Source: a virus | Virus record (IMG/VR): IMGVR_UViG_3300020183_000321 | Location: 1 to 30,992 of that record | Direction: 5' to 3' (one strand) | Length of the DNA stretch: 30,992 nucleotides | Part shown: piece after piece, positions 7,323-29,153 of the stretch | Layout of the letters: the number at the start of each line of letters is the position of its first letter | Position numbering within the stretch: the stretch's first letter is position 1 | Program-made: the position numbers and the translations under genes | The notes under the pieces: generated by a model | What the model saw: the letters and a program-made list of their open reading frames with translations, nothing else | Database searches by the model: none | Told to the model about the DNA's origin: nothing

Positions 7323-7997
7323 TTAAGTCCTCCACTCAGGAGGACTTTTTATTTCATCCATAAAATATTTTAAATCAGCAACATGGCCGCTATTTACATC
7401 TATTATGCCACCATCATCAAAATTTGTTATAGTTCCTGCTAAAGTGTTCAGCCGGGAATCAAAATCAGAAACACCGCCAGATTCATTTTGTTTTTGTTCA
7501 ATAGAATTTATTCTTTCGGTTATTACATCTTTTTCTACTGTAGTTAAAGATTGTGTTTCGTTTAAAATTTCAGCTAATTGATTTGCTTCAGTATTGTCTT
7601 TTATGATATCCGGTAAAATATATTTTTCCGGATTTTCCTCTGTTGGTTTTTGTTCTGGAACATTATTTTCATTATTTGGAGTCAACGAATCAGTAGGAAA
7701 GCTAACTGCTTCAGCTGTTTCTTTATTCGTTGATTTACTTAAAGTTGGTCCTTCTGGACTTTTTTCTTTTTCAGTAGTTTGTTTAGAATTTTCTTCAGAT
7801 AAAGATTCTGTCTTTTCTGGTATTGTTATAGGTTCTTTTTCTTGAGAAATTTCAATAGATGCATTTTTTTCTTCATCTCCTATCATAGATGAATAATTTG
7901 CTGCTGAAAAAACTTCCGTTTTTCCATCTAACATTTCTGTAGAGCGATTATCTTTTGGTGTTTCCTCTTCGTTAGAAAACATTTCTGTTTCTGGCAT
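7323..7997 (-). CDS. Acidic low-complexity protein downstream of gp26/gp51
   Basis: About 224 residues dominated by Glu, Lys, Ser, Thr, Pro and Asn over the first 130 positions, so it is probably disordered. A more ordered helical region follows (about 130-180), then a short Gly/Asp-rich segment and the C-terminus PPEWRT. No family is recognised. The frame opens at 8006, but there GAAGAGG abuts the ATG. The ATG at 7997 has GAGG 9 nt upstream and is the better start. The gene overlaps the 3' end of the gp51-like ORF by 26 bp and is probably co-transcribed with gp26. A tail-assembly or scaffold-like role is possible by position only. Confidence 0.6.
   Translation of the reverse strand: MPETEMFSNEEETPKDNRSTEMLDGKTEVFSAANYSSMIGDEEKNASIEISQEKEPITIPEKTESLSEENSKQTTEKEKSPEGPTLSKSTNKETAEAVSFPTDSLTPNNENNVPEQKPTEENPEKYILPDIIKDNTEANQLAEILNETQSLTTVEKDVITERINSIEQKQNESGGVSDFDSRLNTLAGTITNFDDGGIIDVNSGHVADLKYFMDEIKSPPEWRT
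7325..7350 (+). terminator. Terminator after gp32
   Basis: AAGTCCTCC (7325-7333) pairs perfectly with GGAGGACTT (7339-7347) around a 5-nt loop, and the stem runs into a T tract. It also encodes the last codons of the convergent - strand gene, so the hairpin serves or tolerates both strands. Confidence 0.88.
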
Positions 7998-8118
7998 TTT
8001 CGGCATCCTCTTCTAATTTGTTTTTATATTGATTGAAATAAATATCTCTTTCCCAAGGAAACATATTTTCAAGTTCATCAACAGAAAGAATTTTATTAGA
8101 ACATAAAAAGAAGTTCAT
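7972..8118 (-). CDS. gp51: gp51-like baseplate hub assembly protein, probably made as gp26 frameshift extension
   Basis: A short ORF of 48 residues from the ATG at 8118, with the segment LSVDELENMFPWERDIYFNQ followed by a charged helix. The Pro-Trp-Glu-Arg-Asp-Ile-Tyr core is what I associate with gp51-type proteins of T4-like phages and resembles the C-terminal part of frameshifted tail-assembly chaperones. The ATG has no Shine-Dalgarno sequence; the preceding 30 nt are almost pure A+T. The frame is open upstream of the ATG to 8166, where it meets the T TTT TTT heptamer at the end of gp26. Expression as a gp26-gp51 fusion of 287 residues is therefore likely. It overlaps the next gene downstream. 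Confidence 0.65.
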   Translation of the reverse strand: MNFFLCSNKILSVDELENMFPWERDIYFNQYKNKLEEDAENARNRNVF

Positions 8119-8147
8119 TTTATAATAAACTAATAAATCAATATGAT

Positions 8148-8834
8148 TTAAATTAAAGTAAAAAAATTAAGTACTCCATCCAATCTGAGTGTTCTTTCTA
8201 CTCCATCTGTTGTTGTATATTTCACATCTGCACAAACTTTAGGCAAATCATTAATAAATGATTTTATTTCGTTATATTCTTTTTTGGTAAGTAGAGAAAA
8301 TACTTCTTCTATATCAGAGTTACTTAGATCTTCAAAATTATAAATTGAAAATTCTTTTTGAACTTGTGATATTGAGCATTTTATAAAATGATCCATATCA
8401 AATTTTCCATCTATTGAAAGTATCTTTACAATAGTTGGAGATTCAAATTTTACTTTTAGAGTATCATCTAATTGTAGTTCAAAATATGTTTTACCATTCT
8501 TTAAAAATAAATTGGATAAGTCTAAACTAGTTTTAATTTTTTCTTGTGTTATAGGACATGTAAAATTTGTTTTTACAATTTCTCCTATTGATTTTGATCT
8601 TAATGAACAAAAAAGATATTCCATATCTTGCAATGTTATTTTTTCTTTATCAATATCATCAAAACACTTTTCAATTAATTCTAATACATTTTTGATTATT
8701 AATGATGAATTTTTTTCCTCTTTTATAATTAATAAAGATTTTTCATCAGAAACCAAAAATGGTCTAAAATAAATTTTTTCGCCAGTTGATGGTAAAATTG
8801 TTTGATACTTTGGATATGTTCGTTGAAATTTCAT
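8148..8834 (-). CDS. gp26: Baseplate hub subunit gp26 / tail assembly chaperone-like
   Basis: A 228-residue protein (T4 gp26: 208) with features of the T4 gp26 baseplate family: an N-terminal strand pair LPSTGEKIYFRPFLVSDEK (14-32), a helix and the conserved MEYLFCSLRSKSIGEIV (71-87), then a Cys-containing beta segment starting FTCPIT. T4 gp26 is needed to build the baseplate hub. The gene starts 9 nt after the tube-like gene without a Shine-Dalgarno sequence. Its last codons hold a T TTT TTT heptamer leading into the gp51-like frame, so two products are likely: gp26 and a gp26-gp51 fusion. That arrangement resembles tail-assembly-chaperone pairs of other tailed phages. Confidence 0.8.
   Translation of the reverse strand: MKFQRTYPKYQTILPSTGEKIYFRPFLVSDEKSLLIIKEEKNSSLIIKNVLELIEKCFDDIDKEKITLQDMEYLFCSLRSKSIGEIVKTNFTCPITQEKIKTSLDLSNLFLKNGKTYFELQLDDTLKVKFESPTIVKILSIDGKFDMDHFIKCSISQVQKEFSIYNFEDLSNSDIEEVFSLLTKKEYNEIKSFINDLPKVCADVKYTTTDGVERTLRLDGVLNFFTLI
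8160..8166 (-). other. Candidate -1 frameshift slippery heptamer
   Basis: On the - strand the bases read T TTT TTT in the gp26 frame, an ideal X XXY YYZ heptamer. It covers Phe224 and Phe225, three codons before the end of gp26. Slipping back one base continues with TAC TTT AAT TTA and stays open through the gp51-like ORF to the TAA at 7972. In the -1 frame a stop lies just 5' of the heptamer, so the open frame begins where it is needed. No strong stimulatory stem-loop is visible in the A+T-rich sequence downstream. Confidence 0.6.
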
Positions 8835-8843
8835 ATTTTAAAA

Positions 8844-9470
8844 TTATTCTGGGAACTCTTGACCGCGTAATAAACCGGAACCACCAGAATTTGATGGTAT
8901 TGTAAATTCATAAGATCTAAAAACAAAAAAGACATCAAATCTTGCTGGATCTCCACTTTTTGCGGTCATTGTAATAGGATTTAATTTAATCGGAAATGCT
9001 TCTCTAAAAGTAAATAATCCTTTTACATTTCCATTCATATCTAGACACTCTATTTCTACTAATCCTGGTCTTGCATAATCATTATATGATCTAGCAAACG
9101 AAATATTAGAAGATGGAAATGGTATCATACCATCTTGCACCATAAGATTCATCCATGTTTCCATTTTAGCATAAGTTGACCAGTTTTGTTCAATAGGAAA
9201 TGTAATGAGAAGATTTGATTGGTATTGTGTAATGGAACGAGAGAATCCAGTATCGTTGTATGATTGAGAAATTGGAATATTTCTTCCCAATCCTGTGCTG
9301 CCAATTCTATCAACAATGGTATCTATTTGTCTTCCACCAAATGAAACTTCCAACGCAGTCATTGTATTTGTTCCATTTGGTGTATATACAATGACATTAA
9401 ATCTATTGGATCTTTGAATTCCTCCAGAGTTTATTAATAGGGATCTGATTGTGTCTATTGAATTACTCAT
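8844..9470 (-). CDS. gp54: Tube-fold baseplate protein, gp54-like (tail tube initiator)
   Basis: A 208-residue protein of the tail-tube-like type. It opens with GGIQRSNRFNVIVYTP (about 16-31), which parallels the GGTRKNRF start of the two tube proteins at the end of the window. It then has alternating strands, a central NWSTYAKMETWMNLM helix and a C-terminal strand pair before a flexible Gly/Ser tail. In T4, gp54 and gp48 form the tube-like layers between hub and tube. The close association with gp26 and the nearby gp48 supports gp54. A shorter length than T4 gp54 (320) leaves room for another tube-like baseplate role. It overlaps gp4 by 4 bp (ATGA). Confidence 0.6.
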   Translation of the reverse strand: MSNSIDTIRSLLINSGGIQRSNRFNVIVYTPNGTNTMTALEVSFGGRQIDTIVDRIGSTGLGRNIPISQSYNDTGFSRSITQYQSNLLITFPIEQNWSTYAKMETWMNLMVQDGMIPFPSSNISFARSYNDYARPGLVEIECLDMNGNVKGLFTFREAFPIKLNPITMTAKSGDPARFDVFFVFRSYEFTIPSNSGGSGLLRGQEFPE

Positions 9471-9895
9471 CGAAATAAATTTGTTTCTGTTAGTATTTTA
9501 AAATTCCATCTATTACTTTCGCAGAGATTTTTAGCAGCTTTCCATTTTGCATCATTTACTAGAAATGTTTTCATTTCATTTTTATATGATTTAGTTTTAG
9601 AATTTTTTGGAGCTTCTGTTTGTTTCTTTGGTTTTACTTCAACAATTAAAGTTTTTTCTTCTCCATTTTTTTCTTTTAGAAGAACTAAAAAATCAGGATA
9701 GTAAATATGTTTTTTGTTATCAATAGGAGACATATAAGGTATTTTTATGCATTCGTAGCACCACTTAATTACATTGTCTTGCGAATCGAAATATTTGCAC
9801 AATTTTCTTTCCCACAAAGATTTGCAAAGAATTTTATCCACATTACCAACATATTTTGTTGTGTTTTGTGGAATAAATTTTGTCTTATATGGCAT
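9467..9895 (-). CDS. gp4: Head completion protein gp4
   Basis: A 142-residue protein (T4 gp4: about 150). The opening FIPQNTTKYVG then KILCKSLWERK (about 21-31) matches the head-completion protein family, which usually reads KPKNPxKYxG then YRSSWE. Tyr-Pro-Asp (66-68) followed by a strand with Glu-Val-Lys (86-88), together with Glu29, forms a PD-(D/E)xK nuclease-like site. In T4, gp4 is required to finish packaged heads so that tails can join. The frame is open further upstream to 10024, but that part lies in the divergent gp48 gene and is not credible. The start at 9895 gives the family's normal N-terminus. Confidence 0.85.
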   Translation of the reverse strand: MPYKTKFIPQNTTKYVGNVDKILCKSLWERKLCKYFDSQDNVIKWCYECIKIPYMSPIDNKKHIYYPDFLVLLKEKNGEEKTLIVEVKPKKQTEAPKNSKTKSYKNEMKTFLVNDAKWKAAKNLCESNRWNFKILTETNLFR

Positions 9896-9924
9896 GTAAA
9901 TATATATTAAAAGAAAATAAAAAA

Positions 9925-25641: not shown

Positions 25642-26820
25642 ATGCCACAAATTAATATAACAGAAAATTCAGCAAATTTAATTAATACAATAGCATCTCA
25701 AGCATCTTCCCATATTTCTGTATTTTTTTGTGGAACTACGTTTTATAATAAATTGGTAGAAGGGGAAAGTCCAGTACCAGTTTATAAGCAATATAATACA
25801 CCACAAGAATTAATATCAGAATTTGATATTTCGGTTCTTGCTGGAACTTCTAGTGGTCTTGCTACTCCTGGTGATGAAAAGGGATTTAGCGGAGGTACTA
25901 CTCTAGATAGAGAATTACATTCGGCTTTAAATTATCTTGAATATGGTGGAATTTTAATTGCAGCAACCGGAGCAACTCAATTGGGGTCTGTAAATATTCC
26001 GTTTGATTCTGCATTCTATGAAAGAAGAGATAAATTTAATGATGTTGTAGCCTTTGTAACTATTTTTGAAGATGTTGTTGGTGTTGTTGGTTCTTCATTT
26101 GAATTTAGAAATGGTACTAATGGAGAATATCCATCAACATATTCTGGTGGAGGATTTGGTATTTTAGGATTTACAGGCGTTAATGGTAGCACTTTTGATA
26201 ATCAGTTTTTCTCAGTTCTTGGAAGAAAAGAAAGAACTAGATTATATGGAGGAGAAACAGCTAACATTAGTATATTGATGGTTTCAGACGCTGCTGGATG
26301 TATTGCCAGAACAGATGCAGAATATTTTCCTTGGTATGCTCCAGCTGGAACTGTTCGTGGACAGATTAATAATTTTTCAAAATTAATTCCTGCGCTTGAT
26401 GATAATGATATAACAACTTTGCAATCTCAATCAGTTAATTGTTTTAATAATATTATTGGTTTAGATGGTGCTTATCTTTTAGGAGATAAAACATGTGAAG
26501 TAACATCCACATCAAATAAAGTTCAGTTAGGAGTAACTAGATTAGTAAACTATATCGGTAGATCATTTAAACCAATAATTTCTAGTGCATTGTTTGAACT
26601 AAATGATGCAGAAACAAGATCTAAAATAGTAACATCTGCTACATCAGTTTTGGAATTTATTAAATCGGGAAGAGGTGTTTCTTCTTATTCTATAGTGTGT
26701 GATGAAACAAATAATACAACTGCTGTACAAGAAGCAAGACAAATAGTGGTGGATTTATCGTTTAAACCAGTATTCTCTGTAAATGAAGTTTCGTTTAGAT
26801 TTGTAATTAATCAATCTTAA
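25642..26820 (+). CDS. gp18: Tail sheath protein gp18
   Basis: A 392-residue sheath protein, shorter than T4 gp18 (659), so some outer domains are missing. The conserved core includes FPWYAPAGTVRG (229-240) and the C-terminal domain from about residue 310 (FELNDAETRSKIVTSATSVL, then a Gly-Arg-Gly-Val turn, then the SYSIVCDETNN strand, then the VVDLSFKPV strand). The latter forms the inner layer and inter-subunit handshake in contractile sheaths. It begins 4 nt after gp17 with AGG upstream and ends in a one-base overlap with a second sheath-like gene. Codons are A/T-ending despite the expected high abundance. Confidence 0.92.
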   Translation: MPQINITENSANLINTIASQASSHISVFFCGTTFYNKLVEGESPVPVYKQYNTPQELISEFDISVLAGTSSGLATPGDEKGFSGGTTLDRELHSALNYLEYGGILIAATGATQLGSVNIPFDSAFYERRDKFNDVVAFVTIFEDVVGVVGSSFEFRNGTNGEYPSTYSGGGFGILGFTGVNGSTFDNQFFSVLGRKERTRLYGGETANISILMVSDAAGCIARTDAEYFPWYAPAGTVRGQINNFSKLIPALDDNDITTLQSQSVNCFNNIIGLDGAYLLGDKTCEVTSTSNKVQLGVTRLVNYIGRSFKPIISSALFELNDAETRSKIVTSATSVLEFIKSGRGVSSYSIVCDETNNTTAVQEARQIVVDLSFKPVFSVNEVSFRFVINQS

Positions 26821-28094
26821 TGAATGATATTTCATTTCAATTTAATACAATAGAAGCAAAAAAGAATGTAGATGTTGCTCTTTTAATCTACGATTCTGAT
26901 TATTTTACATACTTAAAATTAACATCTGAAAAATATTATGTAATAGATTCTTTCGAAAAAATTACATCTTTAATAAAAGATGCTAATTATACTTTTTTAG
27001 ATTCTTCTATCTCTACTTTTGAAGATTTTTTAGATTTTACAAAAATAATTGATAGAGGAGATATTGCTAGAAAAATTGATTTTTATAATCATCTAATATT
27101 AGATCAATTACATTATGGATATAATATTATATTAGTTAATTGTTCATCTAGCACATCAGAATCAAATATTCAATACGCATTGAATGAAAAGAATATAAAA
27201 TTACTAGCTTATGATCCTTTAAAACTTAATATAAGCAATTATTTAAAAACTTTAATAATAAATAATAAAATACCAATAATTTTTAATTGCAATAGATCTA
27301 ATAATACAGTATATGAAACAAGTTATACGGATCATAATAGAATTGTTATTATTAATATTTTAGATTTATATCTAAGAAATTTTATTACCTCAGATTTTTC
27401 ATATCTTACTTACAGTTGCGGAGGAATTAAAAAAATATTAAGATATTATTCTTCCAGAAATAATGGTATAAATGAGGAAGACCAAATAGAAAGTAAAAAC
27501 TATACATGTGTCTCTTTAATGAGTGATGCTATTGGAGTATTTTCTAGATCTTTGAATACAAATCCTTGGTTACCCCCAGCTGGTTTTGTACGAGGAAAAA
27601 TTTTAAATCAAGATTTTGCTACTGCAAACAATATAGAATTAGAACAAATAATACCAAATACTCCATCAAATCTAAATGATCTAGAAATAATTTATGATCG
27701 CGGAGTCAATTTACCTATAAAAATTTCTGGTGATGCTGGCATCATATCATATTATTTTAATAGTGATTTTTCTGGTGCTACAATGGATCAAAATCCTTTA
27801 AAACAAAGTATCACATATGCAAATCTTATATTTAATGTTACAAGTAAAATCAAATCTATATTAGCATCATCATTATTTGAACAAAATGATGATCAATTGA
27901 GAAATATAATAAAAAGTAAAATACAACAGTATTTAATTTCAGTTAAATTAAATCAAGGTATTGAAGAATTTTCTGTTGTTTGCGATAGTTCAAATAATAC
28001 TATTGAAGATATAACTAATAGAAAATTAACAGTTGATATTTTTATTAAACCATCGCAAAGCATAAATTTCGTAGAATTAAGCTTTACTACATAA
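26820..28094 (+). CDS. Second, divergent tail sheath-like protein
   Basis: A 424-residue paralogue of the adjacent gp18. The conserved core NPWLPPAGFVRG (249-260) corresponds to FPWYAPAGTVRG, and the C-terminal domain repeats the same order: SLFEQNDDQLRN, EEFSVVCDSSNN, then a VDIFIKPS strand. The N-terminal 200 residues are very Asn/Ile/Lys rich and not obviously similar to gp18. All catalytically neutral structural landmarks of the inner sheath layer are kept, so it could polymerise or co-assemble with gp18, or form a special ring at one end of the tail. It is tightly coupled to gp18 (TAATG), with no Shine-Dalgarno sequence. Its abundance and location in the particle are unknown. Confidence 0.82.
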   Translation: MNDISFQFNTIEAKKNVDVALLIYDSDYFTYLKLTSEKYYVIDSFEKITSLIKDANYTFLDSSISTFEDFLDFTKIIDRGDIARKIDFYNHLILDQLHYGYNIILVNCSSSTSESNIQYALNEKNIKLLAYDPLKLNISNYLKTLIINNKIPIIFNCNRSNNTVYETSYTDHNRIVIINILDLYLRNFITSDFSYLTYSCGGIKKILRYYSSRNNGINEEDQIESKNYTCVSLMSDAIGVFSRSLNTNPWLPPAGFVRGKILNQDFATANNIELEQIIPNTPSNLNDLEIIYDRGVNLPIKISGDAGIISYYFNSDFSGATMDQNPLKQSITYANLIFNVTSKIKSILASSLFEQNDDQLRNIIKSKIQQYLISVKLNQGIEEFSVVCDSSNNTIEDITNRKLTVDIFIKPSQSINFVELSFTT

Positions 28095-28097
28095 CAT

Positions 28098-28613
28098 ATG
28101 CCATCAATTACTAATTTTACATCAAATTTTAAAGGTGGTACTAGAAAAAATAGATTTCTAGTAGAAGCAGTCTGGCCTTCTGGTGTAGGATCGCCAGTAG
28201 CAACATATCATGTGTTAGCCGCTACTTTACCGTCTTCTACTCTGGGCAGAGTTACTTTTCCGTATAGAGGAAGACAGGTTCACTTTGCTGGGGATAGAGA
28301 ATATGAAGATTGGGAAATTTCTGTTTTAGATGATTCTCCTGCATTCGGGACTTTGTGGAGATCATTTCAAGAATGGCATAAAAAAATAAATGGCCATGGT
28401 TCTAATACACATTCTGCTAGTGATGAATCTTTTACTAACTTAAAGCAACCTTGGATAGTAAGACAAAAAGATTTAAATGGAAATACTATTAAAAATATGC
28501 GTTTAGTTGGTTGTTATCCTTCAATTGTAGGACCTATAGATTTTGATATGGGATCACAAGTTTATAATACCTTTGTGGTAAAAATGGCTTATGATTATTT
28601 CGAAATTTTTTAA
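28098..28613 (+). CDS. gp19: Tail tube protein gp19
   Basis: A 171-residue protein, close to T4 gp19 (163). The start NFTSNFKGGTRKNRFLVEA and the segments LPSSTLGRVTFPYRGRQVHF, DREYEDWEISVLDD, and the C-terminus MAYDYFEIF follow the tube family, which stacks as hexameric rings inside the sheath. The gene lies after the sheath genes, as in T4. The upstream ATAACATATGCC is nearly identical to the sequence before gp18. A second, related tube-like gene follows after 9 nt. Confidence 0.9.
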   Translation: MPSITNFTSNFKGGTRKNRFLVEAVWPSGVGSPVATYHVLAATLPSSTLGRVTFPYRGRQVHFAGDREYEDWEISVLDDSPAFGTLWRSFQEWHKKINGHGSNTHSASDESFTNLKQPWIVRQKDLNGNTIKNMRLVGCYPSIVGPIDFDMGSQVYNTFVVKMAYDYFEIF

Positions 28614-28622
28614 AGGAATATA

Positions 28623-29153
28623 ATGTCACAATCAATACAAAATTTTAAATCAAATTTTTTTGGTGGTACTAGAAAGAATAGATTCGAAGTTACAGGTAAT
28701 TTTCCTTATGGTGGAGCCTGGAATAAATTTCAAGTCTATGGAACTCAATTACCACAAAATAATTTATTGACATTAGAATTTGATCATGTTGGTAGAAAAT
28801 TAAAGTTACCCGGTGATAGAGTTTATGGTGTTGGAGGAAATTCTCTATGGACTGTTTTAGTATTAGATGATAATAATCAAAATCCATCTAAATTATGGCA
28901 GGCTTTACATGGATGGAGTAACACCATAAATAATCACACAGCAAATACTGGTTCTCAAACCAATGCTAGTGATTATAAAGCTTCTGTATGGACAGTTAGC
29001 CAGTTAAATTTGAATTGCAATAGTATAATAAAACAAGTCAAACTTTATGGTTGTTGGCCTGTTCAAGTAGGAGAAATAGAATTAGACGAAAGATTACCAA
29101 ACGAATTTGTTACGTTTCAAGTTGCATTTTCTTTTGATTATGCTGAATTTTAA
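28623..29153 (+). CDS. Second tail tube-like protein (gp19 paralogue)
   Basis: A 176-residue paralogue of the preceding tube protein. NFKSNFFGGTRKNRFEVTG is almost the same as the gp19 start. It also has TQLPQNNLLTLEFDHVGRKL, PGDRVYGVGGNSLWTVLVLDD, a LWQALHGWSNTINNH helix matching LWRSFQEWHKKINGH, and a C-terminal FSFDYAEF. Length and fold are fully conserved, so it is probably functional. AAAGGA lies at good spacing before the ATG; gp19 lacks such a site. It may build a distinct ring or tube segment. Confidence 0.87.
   Translation: MSQSIQNFKSNFFGGTRKNRFEVTGNFPYGGAWNKFQVYGTQLPQNNLLTLEFDHVGRKLKLPGDRVYGVGGNSLWTVLVLDDNNQNPSKLWQALHGWSNTINNHTANTGSQTNASDYKASVWTVSQLNLNCNSIIKQVKLYGCWPVQVGEIELDERLPNEFVTFQVAFSFDYAEF

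Follow-up and report, generated by a model that had tools for sequence, protein, structure and literature searches.

The gp26-gp51 junction

The window, by which we mean the whole stretch of DNA analysed, is an IMG/VR record of 30,992 bases. The features that concern us are as follows.

7323..8006, minus strand: ORF of 227 aa downstream of gp26, in the tape-measure slot (weak PHROG match, E 0.014)
7972..8118, minus strand: 'gp51' ORF counted from its ATG, probably not the true start (SD and selection tests)
7972..8166, minus strand: extension read in the -1 frame (64 codons counted from the heptamer, then a stop), gp51-like C-terminal part of the putative long chaperone (PHROG 634, 5e-15)
8112..8131, minus strand: second predicted hairpin, 8 bp, overlapping the gp51 ATG (fold prediction)
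8134..8150, minus strand: predicted AT-rich 7-bp hairpin TAAATCA/TAT/TGATTTA, 9 nt 3′ of the heptamer, candidate stimulator (50-nt fold z -2.85, 70-nt z -2.23)
8148..8150, minus strand: 0-frame stop (TAA) of gp26 (direct reading)
8148..8834, minus strand: gp26-like ORF, 228 aa, putative short tail assembly chaperone (TAC-N; PF12322 T4_baseplate 6.7e-43, PHROG 150 5e-44, AF2 pLDDT 91)
8160..8166, minus strand: slippery heptamer T_TTT_TTT (direct reading; TTTTTTN in relatives)
8173..8179, minus strand: Shine-Dalgarno-like (SD-like) AUGGAGU, with GGAG at 8177-8174, 6 nt 5′ of the heptamer (duplex dG -5.9 kcal/mol with the anti-SD)
8844..9470, minus strand: tail-tube-family gene upstream, 9 nt before gp26 (PHROG 45 tail tube, 7.9e-13)

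On the minus strand the gp26 ORF ends with the codons CTT AAT TTT TTT ACT TTA ATT TAA. Direct reading agreed with the first-pass annotation in placing an in-register heptamer three sense codons 5′ of the stop. A TAA at 8169-8167, directly 5′ of the heptamer, closes the -1 frame; past it no stop occurs until the TAA at 7974-7972, at the end of the gp51-like ORF. As also claimed, the slip codons are separated by 14 codons from the gp51 ATG at 8118, this ATG (preceded by ATTATAAAATG) is without a Shine-Dalgarno sequence, and a fusion would be 287 residues long (223 + 64). Profile matches to both parts of the gp26/gp51 chaperone family are present (PF12322, PHROG 150 and PHROG 634), and that to PHROG 634, 'baseplate hub assembly catalyst', begins at residue 3 of the translated extension, 5′ of the gp51 ATG.

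The downstream ORF at 7323-8006 is rich in Glu, Ser and Pro; in other T4-like phages this slot holds a long ORF (tape measure, lysozyme or unnamed), and two loci of the same clade as the window, L148 and L152, carry versions of 224-226 aa. Profile searches of the neighbouring ORFs recognised no tape-measure gene adjoining gp26/gp51 in the window; in Cr30 the second gene past gp51 is annotated as tape measure. The minus-strand ORF 9467-9904 encodes a head-closure protein (PHROG 218, 1.3e-47), which also matches a TnsA-like endonuclease domain (PF08722, 6.4e-24). Two pairs of adjacent plus-strand ORFs were noticed by eye. Those at 28098-28613 and 28623-29153 have similar starts (..NFTSNFKGGTRKNRF.. 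and ..NFKSNFFGGTRKNRF..) and look like duplicated tail-tube genes, and those at 25642-26820 and 26820-28094 are sheath-sized with C-terminal ends alike, perhaps a duplicated tail sheath.

Conservation of the heptamer and selection on the -1 frame

Are the heptamer and the open -1 frame kept at the gp26-gp51 junctions of related phages, as the first-pass annotation would have it? IMG/VR loci were gathered by three gp26 scans and one scan with the gp51 extension; an alignment of distant gp26 sequences (A2) was too variable to serve as a query. Of 592, 545 and 595 matches in the large scans the best 80 were taken in each case; some contigs recur between scans, and one locus, L145, has the very sequence of the window. 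At 80/80, 10/10, 80/80 and 78/78 newly fetched loci, 248/248 in total, the heptamer is an in-register TTTTTTN and gp51 follows in the -1 frame. GenBank holds 582 records with a gp26 match, of which a small part was read, namely 14 relatives and a further eight picked among distant matches; 16 of the 17 single-copy records have the same arrangement. The relatives of the window (L145-L152, 92-100% identity with one at 66%) all keep the heptamer.

The exception is the Pseudomonas phage Cygsa01 (L113, 1072-1982), the sole single-copy relative examined that lacks a canonical heptamer, gp51 still being in the -1 frame. The junction there reads AGC ATT TTC ACC TAA TG and the gp51 start overlaps the gp26 stop. 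Possibly this phage has swapped frameshifting for re-initiation, or uses another site.

The full set has 313 entries: the window and 312 loci, among which some records recur. No TAC-N profile match was given by seven entries, every one from a two-copy phage: L109 and L110, whose junctions were read directly, the copies of these two, and the fragment L144. gp51 lies in the -1 frame in 271 entries and 269 of these have the heptamer, the two misses being copies of Cygsa01. Removal of near-copies reduced the 269 to 217, in which the heptamer is spelled TTTTTTC (160), TTTTTTT (42), TTTTTTA (13) or TTTTTTG (2).

Codon choice at the site is far from random. Given the amino acids and the codon use of each gene, T_TTT_TT is expected in 95.6 of the 217 sequences (log10P -82.7 for 217), the set having been selected as heptamer-bearing, a selection that cost just 2 of the 271 entries. 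The heptamer spelling is used by 10 of 212 further Phe-Phe pairs in these genes, and in-register TTTTTT occurs elsewhere only 39 times in the 52,536 codons of the 217 gp26 ORFs. A chance T run is ruled out by these values. T4 gp26, which needs no frameshift, retains the ..KEFF.. motif yet spells EFF as GAG TTC TTT, and this together with the codon test rules out conservation of Phe-Phe at the protein level alone.

A tblastn search with the extension (E limit 1) matched 470 phage records, 427 of them over at least 80% of its length. The alignment starts at residue 1 in all 60 best rows, and in 51 of 60 rows taken at even steps. With the PHROG 634 match, these alignments place the beginning of gp51 homology at the slip site, ahead of any ATG.

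Selection was assessed over the same stretch. Across codons 5-18 after the slip site dN/dS is 0.124 in the -1 frame (4,677 pairs) and 1.54 and 1.22 in the other frames, a comparison that, like those of pN and pS below, is descriptive because sequence pairs are not independent. At the 112 entries with no ATG before codon 20 the -1 frame has pN 0.198 and pS 0.835, for which no ratio is quoted as pS is saturated, and the other two frames have pN/pS of 0.320/0.223 and 0.301/0.309. When GTG and TTG are also counted as starts, 71 entries remain, with 0.211/0.815 in the -1 frame and 0.329/0.254 and 0.306/0.312 in the others. Across the family, the stretch preceding the ATG is under protein-level purifying selection in the -1 frame only. 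In the clade of the window the counts are small: near relatives differ there by 0 nonsynonymous and 2-3 synonymous changes, and L152 by 6 nonsynonymous and 4-6 synonymous changes.

These results bear on the possibility that gp51, rather than being reached by frameshifting, is a separate small protein translated by independent initiation or termination-reinitiation, the T run merely encoding a conserved Phe-Phe. Public annotation is compatible with this, as 10 of 13 annotated relatives have a gp51 CDS of its own starting 3′ of the slip site and the other three have none, and so are the overlapping start in Cygsa01 and the first ATG, which in 83 of 217 relatives is codon 5, near the 0-frame stop. 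Yet an SD sequence (dG <= -5) precedes the first gp51 ATG in 2% of the 216 sequences that have such an ATG, the share being 49% at the 217 gp26 starts and 5% at control positions; the -1 frame is constrained 5′ of any ATG, GTG or TTG; Phe-Phe is fixed as T TTT TT here and hardly ever at other pairs, with T4 gp26 spelling it otherwise; and T4 gp51 has the fused architecture described below. We consider a solely separate gp51 very improbable.

A combination is unlikely but deserves more credit: the long chaperone would come from frameshifting, and re-initiation would supply some free gp51 that has its own role. The ATG at codon 5 means that re-initiation could add free gp51 in that part of the family, and SD sequences close to gene ends may help restart, according to the part of PMC5009743 available to us. 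Against it, the first ATG of the window is 14 codons beyond the slip site and without SD.

Candidate stimulators of frameshifting

The first-pass annotation saw no strong stimulatory RNA structure. This holds for the window, which has a weak AT-rich hairpin only, but not for the family, which has candidate stimulators in the form of an SD-like element and, in one clade, a stem.

Pairing with the anti-SD of the 16S tail peaks 7-9 nt 5′ of the heptamer (216 of the 217 sequences), with a mean dG at a gap of 8 nt of -6.65 kcal/mol against a background of -0.51. A dG of -5 or lower occurs within 20 nt 5′ of the heptamer in 84% of sequences and 13% of control windows. The element is largely forced by the protein, yet it is stronger than the protein forces: the observed pairing is -6.99, as opposed to -5.20 after synonymous recoding, and the conserved Glu at this position is encoded by GAG in 120 of 167 cases compared to 1,319 of 5,014 elsewhere. 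A second, weaker anti-SD peak, 31-34 nt 5′ of the heptamer (mean about -2.2 kcal/mol), is family-wide and perhaps reflects the codon content of a conserved motif.

On the 3′ side, the 50-70 nt following the heptamer fold better than shuffled sequences (mean z -1.73 and -1.56; 61 of the 217 sequences), with values of -0.21, -0.42 and -0.28 in three control regions. In the P-SSM2-like clade, picked by peptide motif alone (55 distinct 48-mers from the 269 entries), an 11-bp stem modelled on the P-SSM2 fold starts 5 nt 3′ of the heptamer. In this register 92.6% of cells are paired, compared with 24-45% when the model is slid by 1-3, and individual pairs form in 71-100% of sequences. Both sides change most clearly at pair 20-34 (T-A 29, A-T 10, G-C 8, unpaired 8), the one pair on which covariation support for the cyanophage stem mainly rests. 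No downstream structure shared by all clades was found, the stem at +5 being clear only in the P-SSM2-like clade, and an Rfam search gave a single match (E 0.4) far under its gathering score. The 7-bp hairpin of the window contains just one G-C pair, and L152 retains it only in part; it is a weak and unproven candidate.

The layout of internal SD, heptamer and downstream stem-loop resembles that of Escherichia coli dnaX as given in the available part of PMC5600365. From the portion of PMC5009743 at hand, an SD stimulator is named for dnaX and many IS elements; dnaX differs from the present case in slipping on A_AAA_AAG, where we see TTTTTTN, and in that its shifted product is the shorter one. 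An internal SD of dnaX type is found in the window as a predicted element (dG -5.9, gap 6 nt). A dnaX-type stem-loop close downstream is present in the P-SSM2-like clade, the window having its AT-rich hairpin.

Could the long form arise from transcriptional rather than ribosomal slippage on the T run? The window has a run of seven T and TTTTTTT occurs in 42 of the 217 sequences, but the 160 spelled TTTTTTC have runs of six, and bacterial slippage is described on runs of 9 (PMC5009743, in part). Moreover, ribosomes would account better than polymerase for pairing with the anti-SD and for a stem placed 5 nt 3′ of the heptamer. Polymerase slippage is in our judgement exceedingly improbable.

T4-type phages and the tail assembly chaperones

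The products of T4 genes 26 and 51 both match PF12322 (8.8e-64 and 3.9e-52) and match each other by BLASTP (2e-6). When the profiles of T4-type gp51 and of gp26 are aligned (E 1.1e-13), residues 13-202 of gp51 are covered and about 47 of its residues remain, which correspond to the extension; PHROG 634 matches T4 gp51 at 147-246. At the level of sequence, then, T4 gp26 and gp51 are paralogues, gp51 being gp26 plus the extension.

PF12322 is found once in each of the 17 heptamer records searched (two partial) and once in Cygsa01. It occurs twice in T4, 44RR, 50AhydR13PP, KP15, JSE and AB1I1P (partial) and in five IMG/VR T4-type records; three pieces in each of two more IMG/VR records, G002 and G006, are due to a gene cut by contig ends in the former and split between frames in the latter. 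The split gene (C1:125062-125666 of G006, around L105) is a T4-type long gp51 lying over two frames, either a sequencing error or a broken gene. The heptamer is absent from the short gene in all six two-copy GenBank records, and equally at the IMG/VR loci that T4 gp51 retrieved (10 of 10), among which L099 is truncated ahead of the gene end. The two-copy phages examined lack the heptamer and the single-copy phages have it, Cygsa01 excepted, so the frameshift has been exchanged for a second gene between lineages. The pattern that the first-pass annotation counted against frameshifting, intact gp26 and gp51 with no slippery site, is thus seen in T4-type phages. In these, however, gp51 consists of a whole gp26 paralogue and the extension, so that the long form is encoded directly.

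In a tree of 37 proteins the frameshift rows fall to one side of a branch (92/88) and the long gp51 sequences form one group (99/98); the short T4-type gp26 sequences are together, with the long-branched KP15 apart. KVP40 and phiAS5, Straboviridae with one copy, fall on the frameshift side. The frameshift state likely came before the two-gene state, a judgement that stays at likely since the tree is unrooted.

An AF2 model of window gp26, built with 62 IMG/VR relatives, has pLDDT 91.0 and pTM 0.85. Foldseek gave no significant match to this model in the PDB; among viral models it found 52 at E <= 0.001, and of those with names the foremost are baseplate hub subunits. In VIA-align two PDB rows lead: 3fgx, an uncharacterised protein regarded as TAC-like (Z 8.2, rmsd 4.0, 84 aligned), and the tail assembly chaperone of HK97, 2ob9 (Z 7.0, rmsd 3.8, 80 aligned). 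Both alignments lie within gp26 residues 1-93, the N-domain, and the next PDB row has Z 4.6; as the tool notes that models with no clear match often reach a best Z of 7-8, the modelled resemblance of the N-domain to the HK97 structure supports a TAC fold and does not prove it. A model of T4-type gp51 displays a similar order of elements with C-terminal helices; no TAC was among the rows realigned to it, a result that leaves room for the fold. PDB sequence searches gave no convincing relatives.

Among the known systems nearest to this locus is lambda G/GT, with relatives in HK97 gp13 and P2 E/E+E′; the lambda slip site is G_GGA_AAG. The gp26 locus shares with lambda gpG/gpGT a short ORF, a heptamer near its 3′ end, a -1 extension and a tail-tube gene upstream. 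It differs in the slip site, T_TTT_TTN, in a further domain that follows the N-domain of gp26 and in the SD-like stimulator. T4 gp26/gp51 are homologous proteins, and T4 gp51 is built like the predicted fusion; T4 differs in having two paralogous genes, divergently placed, with no slippery site. T4 paralogy and the tie between copy number and heptamer suggest that gp26/gp26-51 works like lambda G/GT. Assignment of gp26/gp51 to the lambda G/GT class of frameshift chaperones, proposed in the first-pass annotation, is supported by conservation of the heptamer, selection on the -1 frame and the architecture of T4 gp51.

We regard it as very probable, on these comparisons, that gp26 and the gp51-like ORF of this marine T4-like virus are one recoded gene giving two chaperone forms by -1 ribosomal frameshifting. 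Most ribosomes would end at the gp26 stop and release the short chaperone of 228 aa. A minority, slowed by the internal SD-like sequence and, in at least one cyanophage clade, by a downstream stem-loop, would let two Phe tRNAs slip one base back on T_TTT_TTT, read the gp51 part and yield the long chaperone of 287 aa. If the pair acts as lambda G/GT does, the tape-measure protein would be coated by many copies of the short form and few of the long, whose extension would bring in tail-tube subunits. We infer the slippage, its efficiency and the division of labour between the two forms. For lambda the accessible part of PMC5009743 gives a gpG:gpGT ratio of 30:1, with G binding the tape measure and T the tube subunit. 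The same text counts against the proposal in one respect, U_UUU_UUU and U_UUU_UUA being far weaker shift sites than A_AAA_AAG in E. coli constructs.

How much of this is new? T4-like TACs were reportedly identified by Vladimirov, Gautam and Davidson in 2022. Their study (Vladimirov et al., Virology 566:9-15) is cited in the PRFect paper for some T4-like phages having one short gene and one fused long gene, and in the Adele paper with reference to T4-like phages whose TAC-N genes carry poly-T slip signals (PMC10885494/PMC12846349, both available in part). The gp26/gp51 frameshift class, as far as these extracts go, is already published and is not new. The SD-like element, the stem-loop and the clade of the window were found independently here; a partial search of the literature gave no description of an SD-like element or stem at the gp26/gp51 junction, and the stimulators may be new. 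We put forward, at even confidence, a wider proposal: that in marine T4-like phages a cassette of the SD-like element 7-9 nt upstream, T_TTT_TTN and the P-SSM2-like stem sets the ratio of short to long chaperone, that the two-copy T4 lineage swapped it once for a duplication, and that the stimulators and their clade-specific turnover are undescribed.

Cyanophage gp51 is recorded as having about 20% of the length usual for gp51 in other T4-like phages, with the first ~200 residues missing (PMC3037559, in part). Its shortness would be explained if the missing part is gp26, supplied by frameshifting. None of 16 annotated single-copy GenBank records has a joined CDS; three have no gp51 CDS at all. 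The public records of DSL-LC03, S-PRM1 and ACG-2014h (L002, L004 and L008) lack a gp51 CDS though their -1 extension is intact. gp26/gp51 would be better annotated as a joined CDS. The statement in PMC5009743, again from the part available, that the tail-chaperone frameshift is conserved in long-tailed phages 'except T4' is qualified by this reading. The two solutions, frameshift and second gene, are a natural pair with which to study the importance of the short-to-long chaperone ratio.
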